Source of the DNA: an uncultured Lachnospiraceae bacterium
Lineage (GTDB): Bacteria; Bacillota; Clostridia; Lachnospirales; Lachnospiraceae
Reading direction: 5' to 3'
Assembly: GCA_947245585.1 (NCBI GenBank)
Contig: CAMXPV010000012.1
Span: 1 to 64,000 of the forward strand
Length of the DNA stretch: 64,000 bases
Shown here: in pieces, positions 12,177-48,182 of the stretch
Layout: each line of letters begins with the position of its first letter
Numbering within the stretch: position 1 is the first letter of the stretch
Position numbers and translations under genes: made by a program
Notes under the pieces: generated by a model
The model's database searches: none
Seen by the model: only the letters and a program-made list of their open reading frames with translations
What the model was told of the DNA's origin: nothing

Positions 12177-12248
12177 GGCTCCATGGTCAAGCGGTTAAGA
12201 CATCGCCCTTTCACGGCGGTAACACGGGTTCGATTCCCGTTGGAGTCA
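12177..12248 (+). tRNA. tRNA-Glu (anticodon TTC)
   Basis: A full cloverleaf can be folded. Acceptor stem GGCTCCA pairs with TGGAGTC, with one G-T pair. The anticodon loop CTTTCAC gives TTC, and the T arm carries GGTTCGATTCC. The discriminator base is A; CCA is not encoded. Confidence 0.95.
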
Positions 12249-12278
12249 TCGGTCATTCGACCTATGTTAATAAGATAA

Positions 12279-12350
12279 GGCGCAGTAGCCAAGCGGTAAG
12301 GCGTGGGTCTGCAACACCCTGATTCACCGGTTCAAATCCGGTCTGCGCCT
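12279..12350 (+). tRNA. tRNA-Cys (anticodon GCA)
   Basis: Acceptor GGCGCAG pairs perfectly with CTGCGCC. The anticodon loop CTGCAAC gives GCA, and the T arm contains GGTTCAAATCC. The discriminator is T (U), as expected for tRNA-Cys; CCA is not encoded. It lies 30 nt after tRNA-Glu and is probably cotranscribed with it. Confidence 0.95.
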
Positions 12351-42102: not shown

Positions 42103-42807
42103 ATGAAAAAAGAATTGAACGCAGTGGCGATCATTACGGCCCGGGGCGGCAGCAAGCGGATCCCGGGGAAGAATATCAGAGAGTTTATGGGAAAGCCAAT
42201 GTTGGTTTATGGGATTGAAGCGGCGCTTGCGTCAGGACTTTTTCGGGAGGTTATGGTTTCCACCGACGATGAAGAGATCGCGCGGATTGCGTTAGAGGCG
42301 GGCGCGGCGGTTCCCTTTATGAGAAGCCCGGAGACATCGGGGGATTTTGCCACCACGGACGATGTGCTCATGGAGGTGCTTGAGACTTATGAGAAACGGG
42401 GAGAAACCTTTGACTATATGGCCTGCATATATCCGACGGCACCCTTTGTGACGGCAGGGAAGCTTGCGGAGGCCATGAAAGTTTTGGTGGAGCAGGATGC
42501 GTCAGGGGTCATGCCGGTGGTACGCTATTCTTTCCCGCCGCAGCGGGGTATGGCGATCCGGGATGGGAAACTGGTGTACTGCTATCCTGAAAACGCCGTG
42601 AAACGGTCTCAGGATTTGGAGCCCATGTACCACGACAGCGGGCAGTTTTACTGTTACCATGTGGAGCGTTATAGGGCCTGCAGGGGCGAGCTGCCGGACG
42701 GATATCTACCGATCGTTGTATCAGAAATGGAAGTGCAGGATATCGACAATCCGACGGATCTGGAACTGGCGGAAATCAAATTTCGCATGATGCAGAAGAA
42801 GGGATAA
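42103..42807 (+). CDS. pseF: Pseudaminic acid cytidylyltransferase
   Basis: 234-aa CMP-sugar synthase. Activates the nonulosonic acid with CTP. Motifs: VAIITARGGSKRIPGKNIRE (CTP-binding signature), VSTDDEEIARIALEAGA, IYPTAPFVTAGKLAEAMK and the late QDIDNPTDLELAEIKF metal-site region. Length is typical. Its adjacency to pseI and the PseG domain favours PseF over NeuA, though the sugar cannot be proven from sequence alone. RBS AAGGAAG. 4-nt gap to pseI. Confidence 0.92.
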   Translation: MKKELNAVAIITARGGSKRIPGKNIREFMGKPMLVYGIEAALASGLFREVMVSTDDEEIARIALEAGAAVPFMRSPETSGDFATTDDVLMEVLETYEKRGETFDYMACIYPTAPFVTAGKLAEAMKVLVEQDASGVMPVVRYSFPPQRGMAIRDGKLVYCYPENAVKRSQDLEPMYHDSGQFYCYHVERYRACRGELPDGYLPIVVSEMEVQDIDNPTDLELAEIKFRMMQKKG

Positions 42808-42810
42808 AGC

Positions 42811-43866
42811 ATGAATCAGGATAAAATAAAAATCGGCAATCGCTTGCTTGGAGAGGGGGAACCGACCTATATCGTGGCGGAGATGTCGGCCAATCACTTG
42901 CAGGACTATAACAGGGCCGAGGCCATTATACGGGCGGCGAAGGAGGCGGGTGCCGACGCAGTGAAGCTCCAGACCTACACAGTGGACACCATCACCATGG
43001 ACTGCGACAACGAGTATTTTCGGATTACCCAGGGGACGATCTGGGACGGTATGACCTGTTATGAACTATTTAAAGAGGCATACACGCCATGGGAATGGCA
43101 GCCAAAGCTTGTGAAGCTGGCAAATGAGTTGGGGATGGACTGCTTTTCTGCTCCCTTTGATTTTACAGCGGTGGATTTCATGGAGGAGATGGGGATGCCG
43201 GCCTATAAGATCGCTTCCCCTGAAATTTGGGATATTCCCCTGATTCGTAAAGTCGCCAAACTGGGAAAGCCTGTCATTATGGCCACGGGGCTTGCTTATC
43301 TGGAGGACATTGAGAGGGCGGTGAGAACGTGCAGGGAGGAAGGGAATGAACAGATCATCCTTTTAAAATGCACGGCCACGTATCCAACGCCCTATGAGGA
43401 TATGAATATCAGGGTGGTTCCCCATATGGCGGAGGCTTTTGACTGCCTGACGGGGCTTTCCGATCACAGCATGGGTTCGGCGGTGGCGGTGGCTTCGGTG
43501 GCGCTCGGCGCTCGGATGGTGGAAAAACATTTCACACTTTCCAGGGCGGACGGCGGGCCTGACGGGGCCTTTTCCATGGAGCCTGCTGAGTTTAAGCAGA
43601 TGGTGGATGAGATCCGCATGGTGGAGAAGGCGCTTGGCAAGGTGACTTACCGCCTGACCGAAAAGCAGGAGAGAAGCAGGGAGGAAGGGAGATCCCTGTT
43701 CGTCACGGAAGATATGAAAAAGGGAGAAGTCTTCACGGAGAAAAACCTGCGCTCCATACGTCCGGCTTTCGGCATGGCACCCAGACACTATGAGGAGGTT
43801 TTGGGAAAACGGGCCAGGTGTGATATTGCACGGGGAACACCGATGGAATGGAAATATGTGGAGTGA
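42811..43866 (+). CDS. pseI: Pseudaminic acid synthase
   Basis: 351-aa NeuB-family enzyme that condenses PEP with the 6-deoxy diacetamido sugar. TIM-barrel part: YIVAEMSANHLQDYNRAEAI, DAVKLQTYTVDTITMDC, FSAPFDFTAVDFMEEMGMPA, YKIASPEIWDIPLI and LLKCTATYPTPYEDMNI. A SAF/antifreeze-like domain closes the protein from about residue 285 (RSLFVTEDMKKGEVFTEKNL). The DCDNEYF-containing early loop and neighbours point to PseI rather than NeuB or LegI. Directly follows pseF. Confidence 0.9.
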   Translation: MNQDKIKIGNRLLGEGEPTYIVAEMSANHLQDYNRAEAIIRAAKEAGADAVKLQTYTVDTITMDCDNEYFRITQGTIWDGMTCYELFKEAYTPWEWQPKLVKLANELGMDCFSAPFDFTAVDFMEEMGMPAYKIASPEIWDIPLIRKVAKLGKPVIMATGLAYLEDIERAVRTCREEGNEQIILLKCTATYPTPYEDMNIRVVPHMAEAFDCLTGLSDHSMGSAVAVASVALGARMVEKHFTLSRADGGPDGAFSMEPAEFKQMVDEIRMVEKALGKVTYRLTEKQERSREEGRSLFVTEDMKKGEVFTEKNLRSIRPAFGMAPRHYEEVLGKRARCDIARGTPMEWKYVE

Positions 43867-43869
43867 AAT

Positions 43870-45096
43870 ATGCAGAAAAAAATGATGATTCTGGGAGCCA
43901 GTGCGTTACAGGTTCCCGCCATAAAAAAGGCGAAAGAATTGGGCTACCAGATCATTCTGGTGGATTATGACGAGAACGCGGTGGGATTTGCACTGGCTGA
44001 TGTGAAACTGGTGGTCAGCACCCTGGATCAGGAGGAGGTTTACCGACAGGCGCTCTTGTATGAGCCGGATGTGGTGATTACCTCCACCAGCGACGGCCCT
44101 GTGCGGACGGCGGCCTATGTCAATGAAAAGCTTGGGAAACGGCCAGATTTATCTTATGAAAATTCTCTTTGCGCTACGATAAAGAGCAATATGAGAGAAC
44201 GCTTGCAAAAGTGCGGCGTACCCATACCGGAATTTTATGCGGCAGCGGATTTTGAGGATTTTTCAAGGGCGGTCGATCGGTTGGACGGACGCTGTATTGT
44301 GAAGCCTGCGGACAATGCGGGGAGCCGGGGCGTGGTTCTTTTGGATGCCAAAAAGGCGGAAATGGAACCGGAGGATTTCCATGCGGTAAAGGAGCGCGTT
44401 TATCGTTATAGCCGTGAAAATTCCAGAGGCGGTACGGTGATGGTGGAGGAATACATGGAGGGCCCGGAGGTCAGCGTGGAAATTATGGTGGTGGAAGGGG
44501 AGCCCCATATTCTTGCGATTACCGATAAGTATATCACGCCGCCGCCTTATTTTGTGGAGTTGGCGCACTGTGAGCCCAGCAGGCTGGACGCAGAGGTACA
44601 GGATCAGATAGGGGAAGTGGCGGCGCAGGCGGTGCGGGCTGTGGGCATTGAGAATGCGCCGGCCCACGTGGAGATAAAAGTGACAAAGAACGGGCCCAAG
44701 ATCGTGGAACTGGCGGCAAGGCTTGGCGGTGATTTTATCACATCCAGATTGGTTCCTCTTTCCACAGGAATTGATATGGTGGGAGCGTCCGTGATTCTGG
44801 CGACGGGAGAACAACCGGAATTGACCCCGGCGAGGAAGAAAGGCGCGGCGATCCACTTTATTCACGCCAAAGAGGGGCAGCAGGGCGTGATTAAAAACAT
44901 AACCGTGCCGGAGACGCTTTATCAGGCGGAGGGCGTGGAGGAGATTGCGCTGTACAAAAAGCCCGGTGAGAATGTGCAAGGAACGCACTCCAGCAACGAT
45001 AGACTGGGCCATGTGATCACAGTAGGGGAAACTGCAAAGGAGGCCATGGAGCGCGGAGAATGGGCGCTTTCGCAGATCAGGGTGGAAATCCTGTGA
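43870..45096 (+). CDS. ATP-grasp domain protein
   Basis: 408 aa. N-terminal Rossmann-like pre-ATP domain (MMILGASALQVPAIKKAKEL). Central ATP-grasp fold: GRCIVKPADNAGSRGV and GGTVMVEEYMEGPEVSVEI, with Mg/ATP residues in KIVELAARLGGDFI. C-terminal domain ~90 aa. ATP-grasp ligases couple a carboxylate to an amine or similar nucleophile via an acyl phosphate. Next to pseI it could ligate an amino acid or another acid onto the sugar, or act on the nonulosonate carboxyl (inference). 3-nt gap to pseI. Confidence 0.82.
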   Translation: MQKKMMILGASALQVPAIKKAKELGYQIILVDYDENAVGFALADVKLVVSTLDQEEVYRQALLYEPDVVITSTSDGPVRTAAYVNEKLGKRPDLSYENSLCATIKSNMRERLQKCGVPIPEFYAAADFEDFSRAVDRLDGRCIVKPADNAGSRGVVLLDAKKAEMEPEDFHAVKERVYRYSRENSRGGTVMVEEYMEGPEVSVEIMVVEGEPHILAITDKYITPPPYFVELAHCEPSRLDAEVQDQIGEVAAQAVRAVGIENAPAHVEIKVTKNGPKIVELAARLGGDFITSRLVPLSTGIDMVGASVILATGEQPELTPARKKGAAIHFIHAKEGQQGVIKNITVPETLYQAEGVEEIALYKKPGENVQGTHSSNDRLGHVITVGETAKEAMERGEWALSQIRVEIL

Positions 45097-45120
45097 AAAA
45101 GCACATGGAAATATTCCGAA

Positions 45121-46206
45121 ATGGGGCGTATGATGAAAGATCGAATTTATGTCTGCCACACGTACTATCATGTGTATGTGGCGTGCTTGAAGGAACTGAA
45201 TCTGGCGCGGGATGAACGCGGAAACGCCACTCTTGTGATGAGCACCATGTCCAATGATTTCGGGGATTTGAAGGAGCGGGCTTTGGCCTGCGGACTCTTT
45301 GAGGCGGTGTATATGTTCGAGGAAAAAGAGGATGTGAACTTCCCTGAGATTATGAAATATCATGTGGACAGGGGAAATCTTTTTTTCAATCTGCTTGCCC
45401 GCATCCGTTACACAAAGCTTTTGGGCAGAGCGCAGGAGCCCTATGTGCCGGTGGATTTTAAAGCGTACAGGGATATCTATGTTTTTTGCGACTCCGATCC
45501 CATCGGTTATTATCTGAGTTATAAAAAAATCCATTACCATGCGTTGGAGGACGGGCTTGACTGTATCAGCACCTATGATACCGCCCGCTACGATAACAGG
45601 GGACATTTTAAATTAAAGGCCTTTCTCGCTTCCCTGAACCTGATTTTCATTCAAAACGGATGGGGAAAATATTGTCTTGATATGGAGGTCAACGATATCT
45701 CCATTCTGCCTTATCCGTGCCCCAAATATATTGAGAAGCCCAGACAGGAGCTGACCGAGCGGCTGACAAGGGAAGACCGGGCGATGTTGGTGCGGCTTTT
45801 TGTGGCGAATATAGAAGAAATTAAGGAAAAGCTCGCCACTGGCAGGGAAAATGTGCTTCTTTTGACGGAGCCTTTGTGTGAACTGCCGGTTCGGGAAAGG
45901 ATTTTTCAGGATTGCATTGACTTATATGGTCAAATAGATGGAAAGGAGTCGGTGGTTTTGATTAAGCCCCATCCGAGAGATCTGTTGGATTATGAAACCC
46001 TCTTTTCGGAGCACATCGTTCTTGACCGGAAGTTTCCGATGGAGGTGTTAAATTATATTGAAGGACTGCAGTTTCGACGTGTGATCTCTGTTTTTACGGT
46101 GGTGCGCAATATTCAGTTTGCCGAGGAGATCGTTTATCTGGGAGAAGATTTTATGGACAAGTACGAAGACCCAAGACTGCACCGGCAGAATGAAGACATC
46201 TATTAA
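45121..46206 (+). CDS. GT52-like (sialyltransferase-type) glycosyltransferase
   Basis: 361 aa. It begins MMKDRIYVCHTYYHVYVACL, then VFCDSDPIGYYLSYKKIHYH, LEDGLDCISTYDTARYDNRG and ESVVLIKPHPRDLLDYE. The early TYYHVY and the late KPHPRD strings resemble GT52-type CMP-sialic acid transferases and poly-sialyltransferase-like GT-B enzymes. Coming right after the CMP-nonulosonate genes, it is the best candidate for the pseudaminyl transferase (inference). Start uncertain among ATGs at 45121, 45130 and 45133. Followed by the structured intergenic element. Confidence 0.68.
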   Translation: MGRMMKDRIYVCHTYYHVYVACLKELNLARDERGNATLVMSTMSNDFGDLKERALACGLFEAVYMFEEKEDVNFPEIMKYHVDRGNLFFNLLARIRYTKLLGRAQEPYVPVDFKAYRDIYVFCDSDPIGYYLSYKKIHYHALEDGLDCISTYDTARYDNRGHFKLKAFLASLNLIFIQNGWGKYCLDMEVNDISILPYPCPKYIEKPRQELTERLTREDRAMLVRLFVANIEEIKEKLATGRENVLLLTEPLCELPVRERIFQDCIDLYGQIDGKESVVLIKPHPRDLLDYETLFSEHIVLDRKFPMEVLNYIEGLQFRRVISVFTVVRNIQFAEEIVYLGEDFMDKYEDPRLHRQNEDIY

Positions 46207-46242
46207 CAGTTTGCGTGAAATGCGCTCCTGTGGTAAGATAAT

Positions 46243-46403
46243 CAACAGTTCAGCCAGACTGAATCTGTATCGCAAATTGTGCTTGCAGAAATTTGCAATG
46301 CAGATGATAGTCTGAGGGAATGCCCGCTTATGAGCAAAAAGAGCTGCGGAGCAGCGGAAAGCGACAAAGTCGCGTTTTGCGAATGGCATGAGCTGAACTG
46401 TTG
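46243..46403 (+). other. Multibranched inverted-repeat element, candidate structured RNA or MITE
   Basis: The 221-bp gap before the ABC transporter gene is filled by a highly ordered fold. The outer stem is perfect over 12 bp: CAACAGTTCAGC (46243-46254) / GCTGAACTGTTG (46392-46403). Arm 1 (46255-46314) is a long hairpin: CAGACT/AGTCTG, ATCTGTAT/ATGCAGAT, GCAAATT/AATTTGC. Arm 2 (46320-46389) is closed by ATGCC/GGCAT and GCAAAA/TTTTGC and carries two side hairpins, GCTGC-GGA-GCAGC (46343-46355) and GCGAC-AAA-GTCGC (46361-46373). No coding potential is seen inside. It ends about 25 nt before the next start. No other copy was noticed in this window. Confidence 0.7.
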
Positions 46404-46427: not shown

Positions 46428-48182
46428 ATGCTTAAGATTTTAAAGAAAATGAATCTTCTGTTGGATGCCAGGCAGAAGCGGACTATGGTGGCGCTTATCT
46501 TTATGATGTTGATCGGCGGTGTGTTGGAAAGCCTGGGAATTTCCATGATTGTGCCTATTGTGACTGTGGTAATGGATCCGGCGGCGGTGCAGGAAAATGA
46601 GCTGCTCTCTTCCATCTATTCGGTGATGGGGATGAAGAGCAACACGGAGTTTGCCATGTTTGCACTGCTTGCCTTTGTGGGAATGACGGTTGTGAAAAAC
46701 ATTTATCTGTTCTTCCAACAAAAAATGCAGCTTCGTTTTGTCTACACGAACCAGTTTGCGACATCCAGACGCATGATGATCAACTTTATGCAGAGGCCCT
46801 ATGAGTATTATCTGAATGCGGATACTTCTGTCATCCAGAGAAACATCACTTCCGATGTAAATAATATGTACGGCTTGATTTTAAGCTGTCTGCAGCTTTT
46901 CAGCGAGTGTATCGTTTTCGCCTGTCTGGTGGTTGTTTTGTTCATTTATTCGGATCCGATGATGATCATGTTGGTGGCGGCGCTCATGGTGATCCTGCTT
47001 TTTGTGATTAAGAAGGTATTAAAACCCATTATGATCAGGGCGGGACAGGACAATCAGGATTTTTACAGCGGTTTGTACAAGTGGATTGAGCAGTCCGTGA
47101 TGGGAATTAAGGAGATCAAGATCGGCTGTAAAGAAAATTACTTTATCAACGAGTATGCGAAATGCGGCGAGGGCTACGTCAACTCCGTGCAGAAGTATAA
47201 TCTATTCAATGCGACACCGAGACTTTTGATTGAGACGGTGTGTATTGCGGGAATGATAGGATATTTTGTCCTGATCATCGGGCAGGGCGTGCAGATGAAA
47301 GATCTGCTTCCACAGCTCTCGGCCCTTGGGGTGGCGGCTATGAGGCTGCTTCCCAGCGTAAACAGAATCAATAATTACCAGACTTCGATTTCTTATTTTG
47401 AACCTTTCTTTATGGGGGTCAGCGATAATTTACAGGAAGAGATTCACGACAGGGCGGTGACTTACGATCCGGAAGCCTACAGAAAGAAAGAGAATGTGGA
47501 AAAACTGCCTGTAAAGAAAGAAATTCGACTGGAAGATATCACCTATAAGTATCCGAATACGGAGACATATATCTTTGACCATGCGGATATGAAGATACCG
47601 ATCGGCGCATCCGTGGGTATTGTGGGTGTTACGGGCGCGGGAAAGACGACGATTGTGGATATTTTGTTAGGACTTCTGCAGATGGAGAGCGGCCGTATTT
47701 TGGCAGACGGCGCGGATGTCAGCGAAAACTATGCGGGGTGGTTGAAAAACATCGGCTATATTCCGCAGACCATTTTTATGATAGACGATTCCATCCGTAA
47801 AAATGTGGCCTTTGGCGTGCCGGAGGAGGAGATTGACGACAAAAAGGTGTGGCGTGCCCTTGAGGAGGCGGCTCTCGACGACTTTGTAAAGAGTCTGCCG
47901 GATGGCGTAGAGACTGGGATCGGGGAGCGGGGCATCCGTATTTCCGGCGGTCAAAGACAGCGAATCAGCATTGCCAGGGCGCTCTATGAAGACCCGGAGG
48001 TGCTTGTGTTGGATGAGGCGACTTCCGCCCTTGACAATGAGACTGAGGCGGCCATCATGGATTCCATCAACAGGCTGCACGGGAGGAAGACGCTGGTTAT
48101 TATTGCCCACAGATTACAGACCATAGAGAAATGTGATATGGTGTACCGGGTTCAGGCGGGGAAAATTTCCCGCGAGAGATAG
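46428..48182 (+). CDS. ABC transporter, fused permease/ATPase (PglK-like flippase)
   Basis: 584-aa half-transporter: 6-helix membrane domain (~1-330), then the nucleotide-binding domain. Walker A GVTGAGKTTIVD (Lys406), Q-loop YIPQTIFMIDDSI, signature ISGGQRQRISIARAL, Walker B VLVLDEATSALD and H-loop IIAHRLQTIEKCDM are all intact, so it should work as a homodimer. Its look and place resemble PglK, which flips lipid-linked oligosaccharides. It could therefore move the undecaprenyl-linked repeat unit in place of Wzx; no Wzx is seen in the window. Start chosen at 46428, after AAAGGAAA. Confidence 0.87.
   Translation: MLKILKKMNLLLDARQKRTMVALIFMMLIGGVLESLGISMIVPIVTVVMDPAAVQENELLSSIYSVMGMKSNTEFAMFALLAFVGMTVVKNIYLFFQQKMQLRFVYTNQFATSRRMMINFMQRPYEYYLNADTSVIQRNITSDVNNMYGLILSCLQLFSECIVFACLVVVLFIYSDPMMIMLVAALMVILLFVIKKVLKPIMIRAGQDNQDFYSGLYKWIEQSVMGIKEIKIGCKENYFINEYAKCGEGYVNSVQKYNLFNATPRLLIETVCIAGMIGYFVLIIGQGVQMKDLLPQLSALGVAAMRLLPSVNRINNYQTSISYFEPFFMGVSDNLQEEIHDRAVTYDPEAYRKKENVEKLPVKKEIRLEDITYKYPNTETYIFDHADMKIPIGASVGIVGVTGAGKTTIVDILLGLLQMESGRILADGADVSENYAGWLKNIGYIPQTIFMIDDSIRKNVAFGVPEEEIDDKKVWRALEEAALDDFVKSLPDGVETGIGERGIRISGGQRQRISIARALYEDPEVLVLDEATSALDNETEAAIMDSINRLHGRKTLVIIAHRLQTIEKCDMVYRVQAGKISRER

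Follow-up and report, generated by a model that had tools for sequence, protein, structure and literature searches.

A structured repeat before a Lachnospiraceae flippase gene is probably a MITE-like relative of the Clostridiales-1 RNA

Introduction

Is an elaborately folded sequence in front of a gene a switch that belongs to that gene, or something that came to lie there? The window analysed here, a stretch of 64,000 nt from an uncultured Lachnospiraceae bacterium (contig CAMXPV010000012.1), raises this question with a 161-nt structured repeat placed directly before a flippase-like ABC exporter gene. A preliminary description of the locus left three options: a cis-acting RNA controlling the flippase gene, a trans-acting RNA, or a MITE-like mobile repeat.

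Structure and position of the element

The structured repeat occupies positions 46243–46403 of the forward strand, and the features drawn in the preliminary description are present in its sequence. A perfect 12-bp outer stem, whose left half (46243–46254) is the exact complement of its right half (46392–46403), encloses two arms, all read on the forward strand. Arm 1 (46255–46314), previously described as a long hairpin, is imperfect and has a conserved GCTTGC loop region; it is defined by fold and covariation, and Arm 2 (46320–46389) by consensus fold and covariation. Arm 2 carries the pair of side hairpins that had been described, each of five perfect base pairs closed by a 3-nt loop, at 46343–46355 (loop GGA) and 46361–46373 (loop AAA), and an internal loop of conserved letters, AUGAGCA/UGCGAAU, with its 5′ side at 46330–46336 and its 3′ side at 46378–46384. 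The extent of the whole element is based on sequence, fold, BLASTN copies and the covariance model R1 described below.

The two halves of the outer stem also form inverted ends: the left one has the shared core GTTCAGCC, and in many copies similarity ends at TGAAC in the right one. The element thus has the terminal inverted repeats of a MITE, as perfect 12-bp ends, and, being 161 nt long, no transposase of its own. The listed open reading frames that cross it lie on the opposite strand and extend into the flanks.

Downstream, 25 nt separate the end of the element from the ATG (46428) of the ABC exporter gene (46428–48182, +; Pfam PF00005 and PF00664). Upstream lies a glycosyltransferase family 52 gene (45121–46206, +; Pfam PF07922, 43.2 bits), followed by a candidate native promoter of the flippase gene, identified by eye outside the element at 46211–46239 (+), with a −35 TTGCGT, a 17-nt spacing and TGG before the −10 TAAGAT. 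The glycosyltransferase gene stands with cytidylyltransferase, NeuB-family and ATP-grasp genes (42103–46206) in a sialic-acid-like sugar cluster before the flippase gene.

Copies in the genome, the genus and beyond

BLASTN found four near-full copies in the element's own genome, including that of the window, and one 3′ fragment; the other three near-full copies are 73–82% identical to the window copy. Matches occurred in 21 of 61 genomes, all of the window's genus. From 53 aligned copies we retained 47 near-full ones as alignment A1, leaving out rows that lacked more of their ends, the odd rows L057, L058 and L060, and duplicates. A covariance model, R1, was built from A1, with a match defined as E ≤ 0.001 (E-values are rough). 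In the same 61 genomes, R1 matched 29 of 37 from the genus and 0 of 24 others. The best E-value was below 1e-10 in 20 of the 37 genus genomes, the rest of the matches being weak, and the number of matches was 7 in the own genome and 35 in the richest. The window copy, itself among the 47 sequences of R1, was matched at 46241–46402 with 167.1 bits. Homologues therefore exist by both methods, and the objection anticipated in the preliminary description, that a covariance-model search and BLASTN might return none, falls away.

An exact pattern scan of public genomes recovered 85 stretches, with titles that mostly read Lachnospiraceae bacterium. At one locus (L040, positions 730–1162) three copies, one of them partial, stand head to tail with short spacers. 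No match was found in a plasmid collection, nor in IMG/VR with the exact pattern. In a phage collection, 5 of 50,697 records matched partially (45–54% of the query), the best row being unannotated. These records (MT835743.1, MT837746.1, MT838565.1, MT836949.1 and MT836794.1) are labelled as bacteriophage from human faeces and may be bacterial DNA.

Fold stability and covariation

Folded alone, the window element has a minimum free energy of −69 kcal/mol as compared to a shuffle mean of −44.4 (z = −6.40), and none of 200 shuffles was as stable, in agreement with the earlier statement that the pairing is far from chance. The single-sequence minimum-energy fold departs from the proposed pairing in part of the second arm, where the 47-copy consensus agrees with the first proposal.

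RNAalifold analysis of A1 yielded 51 consensus pairs, 35 of which show compensatory changes in at least one sequence. Pairing is kept in 95.8% of cells, and none of 500 shuffles, in which relatedness remains, attained any of five measures. Sliding the columns by 1–3 positions lowered the covariation score from 0.322 to at most 0.070, in a comparison that favours the structure over its slid versions because it was derived from the same alignment. Across the 47 copies, pairing in helix 1 (a stem of 7 pairs) is kept in 99.7% of cells. Changes on both sides were found in 17 of 21 pairs in Arm 1 (helices 2–4) and in 16 of 23 pairs in Arm 2 (helices 5–8), as well as in all five pairs of each side hairpin. 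The covariation is thus real, indicating an RNA structure under selection in the family.

Among the non-Watson–Crick cells, G-U outnumbered A-C by 57 to 25, with one GU-dominated pair left out (binomial p = 5e-4, which ignores relatedness). The two kinds of mismatch are indistinguishable to a double-stranded DNA palindrome, so that their imbalance favours RNA of the window strand and points to selection acting on that RNA. The internal loop AUGAGCA/UGCGAAU is nearly invariant, its 5′ side reading ATGAGC in 37 of 47 copies and ATAAGC in 6. The G-to-A change in the loop is paired with an A-to-C change opposite (41/0/2/4; Fisher p = 8e-5, which ignores relatedness), and the loop can be viewed as a candidate for tandem G-A pairs.

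Relationship to Rfam Clostridiales-1

At the Rfam gathering threshold the window yields two tRNAs only, from neighbouring genes at 12177–12350 (RF00005), and the element is absent from the list. In a permissive scan of five loci chosen from 69, all five aligned to RF01699 (Clostridiales-1) along model positions 1–166, covering the consensus architecture of the whole model, with scores of 43.6, 33.7, 28.1, 25.6 and 23.7 bits against a gathering cut-off of 48. The weakest score is that of the window copy (E = 0.15). SNORD67 and mir-785, each below cut-off at one of these five loci, were set aside as chance. RF01699 has two matches at E ≤ 0.001 in the own genome; neither is above the cut-off and neither is the window copy.

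In the reverse direction, R1 (E ≤ 1) hit the Clostridiales-1 site itself in 11 of 15 loci, nine of them with E below 0.01, and missed it in four; a match in L116 (E = 0.42) fell off the Clostridiales-1 site and was left out of the 11. The two families have in common the two-arm layout and the AUGAGCA/UGCGAAU loop. Since the matches run over the full length, yet all fall below the cut-off, the window element is a diverged relative of Clostridiales-1 and not a member by Rfam's rule. The comparison with Rfam suggested earlier therefore did uncover a relation, although not to the trivial known element that had been envisaged: the family is itself unexplained, and the window copy scores below its cut-off.

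Surveyed across the order, RF01699 was present in 57 of 295 genomes, 41 of which had it above the cut-off, and none of 14 controls had it. At least nine candidates, with copies of equal scores, were found in several genomes. The table of Weinberg 2010 (PMC2864571) rates Clostridiales-1 as probably RNA and probably not cis-regulatory, and mobility is not stated in the portion of that source available to us. In the open-licence literature that we searched, there was no link of Clostridiales-1 to a mobile element.

Transposition marks and the search for a mover

The 18 best-scoring Clostridiales-1 copies with flanks were taken from genomes G313 and G282 (another genus), where copies lie above the Rfam cut-off and include ones of equal score. 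Sixteen of them are one 190-bp element that starts with TGACGTAAGGGTCAAAAG and ends with its near-inverse CTTTTGACACCTACCTCA (at most one mismatch, both ends); the two copies with other ends were not scored. An exact target-site duplication flanks all 16 scored copies, of 5 bp in 13 cases and of 6 bp in three, as compared to 22 matches in 240 when 5-bp flanks were re-paired between copies. At these loci (L117–L123 and L126–L134) the target duplications are AT-rich and the 190-bp elements bear a 3′ tail hairpin, a part that is missing in the window family. Inspected by eye, nine copies of G146 have similar ends and partly clean repeats, and 11 copies of G180, G188 and G218 show no clear duplication.

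Within the window's genus the ends of the copies are the outer stem itself, and similarity stops directly outside it. At these fixed ends no target-site duplication was found among the 53 same-genus copies, either by an exact scan or by a mismatch-tolerant scan against re-paired flanks, where the best z was 3.6 for one of 342 offset pairs per length. The top hits of the exact scan, of length 3, lay inside the element and are no duplications. The same-genus copies are old, and duplications there could have faded. The MITE label is thus incompletely borne out, there being no clean duplication in the own genus.

No autonomous partner was found in G282, either by end-pattern searches or in 20 regions surrounding ends that were unpaired or paired in an odd way. 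A 2.1-kb end pair in this genome was rejected as a partner, as its open reading frames resemble, by eye, a two-component system. Many one-ended or truncated copies of the 190-bp element were seen in the same genome (L215–L234), and at L226, L230 and L231 end pairs of this element total only 39 bp.

Neighbouring genes, orientation and stop codons

We grouped 112 distinct copies by flank similarity into 82 sites and called genes by a simple open-frame rule. The element was in sense with both neighbouring genes at 37 sites and antisense to both at 18; 15 sites were divergent and 11 convergent, and one had no upstream call. Within same-direction gene pairs, sense thus exceeds antisense (37 vs 18, p = 0.014), making some selection on the element's transcript possible. 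The upstream gene was in sense at 48 sites. At 35 of these its stop codon fell between −5 and +4 nt of the element start, with 20 exactly at −2, and at none between 5 and 33. The adjoining stop codon was TAA in 28 of the 35 cases. We infer that this adjacency could arise from an element end that completes a TAA, together with tight operon spacing.

TATAAT-like hexamers (at most one mismatch) were present in the 20 nt upstream of the element at 19 of the 47 sites away from stops, and at 5, 14 and 11 of the 47 in three successive 20-nt bins farther out. As hexamers also occur in the farther bins, the idea that copies in general follow a promoter at constant spacing was dropped, and a promoter is proposed, by eye, for the window site only.

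A multicopy family of genes for trans-acting small RNAs, perhaps as a secondary role, would account for the conserved fold and the conserved unpaired letters, and Rfam lists RF01699 under the type 'Gene; sRNA'. Against this reading, copies often lie directly at the stop codon of an upstream gene in sense; the promoter-like sequence of the window is also present where the element is not, and shortened copies exist. We accordingly give this reading little credence.

At the dnaK–dnaJ site, recognised by HSP70 and DnaJ domains, the element begins right at the dnaK stop codon, and orthologs without the element stop there too. Among 30 loci, four have elements above 130 bits and five have shortened or degraded ones at 44–77 bits; most others are without. 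These loci (L155–L184, one genus) display a series from intact through shortened elements and bare ends to sites without the element. Dispersed copies and sites without the element, both expected of a MITE, are thus found. The losses at this site and at the flippase site, where relatives have shortened copies or none, make it very improbable that the element is an mRNA stabiliser which positive selection maintains at gene ends and leaders and whose mobility lies wholly in the past. The sense bias, the stop-codon adjacency and the excess of G-U over A-C would agree with such a role, but the adjacency would also follow from the TAA-completing end and operon spacing.

The flippase site

We collected 20 flippase loci including that of the window; three were dropped because the upstream match was missing, and the 16 others were compared over both flanks. 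R1 detected a full element at none of the 16, with a faint trace (E = 0.07) in G016. The closest relative found, G033, has flanks 88–89% identical and no element at this site. Shortened traces lie at the same point in G016 and, by eye, also in G025 and G353, so that the insertion may predate these species. These traces suggest that the species inherited an old insertion in common, which G033 later lost, and speak against a recent gain in the lineage of the window. Whether old or recent, the element is not maintained on behalf of the flippase gene. Promoter-like counterparts were seen by eye at orthologous sites without the element (for example L186, L189, L194, L198 and L201), which identifies the candidate promoter as the gene's own.

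The proposal that the element is a dedicated cis-acting leader, a riboregulator or attenuator of the flippase gene, draws on the position of a stable, covarying fold, which follows a promoter-like sequence and precedes a start codon; it is nevertheless highly unlikely, given that none of the 16 other flippase loci compared has the full element, that copies stand at 82 sites with dissimilar flanks and by other genes such as dnaK–dnaJ, that 18 of 55 are antisense within same-direction gene pairs, and that no U-run is visible by eye after the element at the window site. Compensatory changes upstream of the same gene had been named as support for a riboregulator, and here the expectation divides: the covariation is genuine in the family, but it is not tied to this gene.

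Discussion

Taken together, we consider it probable that the window element belongs to a family of small, non-coding mobile repeats of MITE-like character that fold as RNA. This copy, a diverged relative of Clostridiales-1, would have landed downstream of the flippase promoter and ahead of the gene's start codon. As a scattered repeat whose Clostridiales-1 relatives bear insertion scars, it most likely came to rest here as a passenger and did not arise as a switch for the flippase. Among the three original options the MITE-like repeat is thus the favoured one, on the basis of its dispersed copies, the empty orthologous site and the duplications in Clostridiales-1 elements of two genomes, and with the qualification that its own genus offers no clean duplication.

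Prokaryotic MITEs, as characterised in the sections of PMC10969869 at hand, have inverted ends, stem-loop transcripts and direct repeats that fade with time, and are thought to derive mainly from insertion sequences. The window family resembles them in its inverted ends and differs in that no parent insertion sequence was seen (in G282) and no target duplication was found in the window's genus. A covarying, strand-biased internal RNA structure is a trait of the window family that those sections do not name for MITEs; a plain MITE has no need of it, and it counts against that simple label.

Other small repeats offer parallels. BOX elements of Streptococcus pneumoniae are, according to the parts of PMC3049150 that we could draw on, small interspersed folded repeats, some of them co-transcribed with genes; in one pneumococcal genome a BOX repeat encodes the stop codon at 36 gene 3′ ends, with dnaJ among the genes named. 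The stop-codon positions of the window family recall this, as a resemblance of behaviour only, since BOX, in the same excerpts, is pneumococcal and built of the modules boxA, boxB and boxC. Correia/NEMIS repeats of Neisseria are presented in excerpts of PMC2649163 and PMC3049150 as short repeats with inverted ends and possible RNase III targets in transcripts; compared by these descriptions, they share shortness and inverted ends with the window family, and the hosts differ. Our search of the open-licence literature found no related MITE for Lachnospiraceae or Butyrivibrio and no interspersed repeat noncoding RNA in Lachnospiraceae.

For the mobile repeat that we favour, the copies would have spread at the DNA level through a transposase acting in trans, a step that we infer because no partner was seen in G282. 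Because the element follows the native promoter and precedes the start codon, transcription of the flippase gene probably starts at the element or within a few nt of it, and the mRNA would carry a tightly folded 5′ leader. By analogy with BOX or Correia/NEMIS, the effect on the flippase may be passive, through transcript stability or spacing, and is presumably not ligand-controlled.

A bolder extension, to which we give only a minor share of our confidence, is that Clostridiales-1, instead of being a small RNA gene of the cell, would be the conserved RNA of a selfish element widespread in the order. The folded RNA, with its conserved tandem G-A loop, would then be required for the element to spread or to insert harmlessly. 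Such an RNA might protect the new 5′ end or space cistrons after stop codons. If this were true, the family would represent a miniature element that depends on its RNA, as opposed to a passive hairpin in DNA.

Overall, the MITE-like reading suggests an explanation for a family of RNAs that was catalogued in 2010 with no function assigned and whose above-cut-off copies in two genomes bear transposition marks, and it reveals a Clostridiales-1 lineage below the Rfam cut-off. If the fold matters for spread, this would be a mobile repeat selected via its transcript. The case is also a warning that such leaders should not be taken as riboswitches of the next gene.
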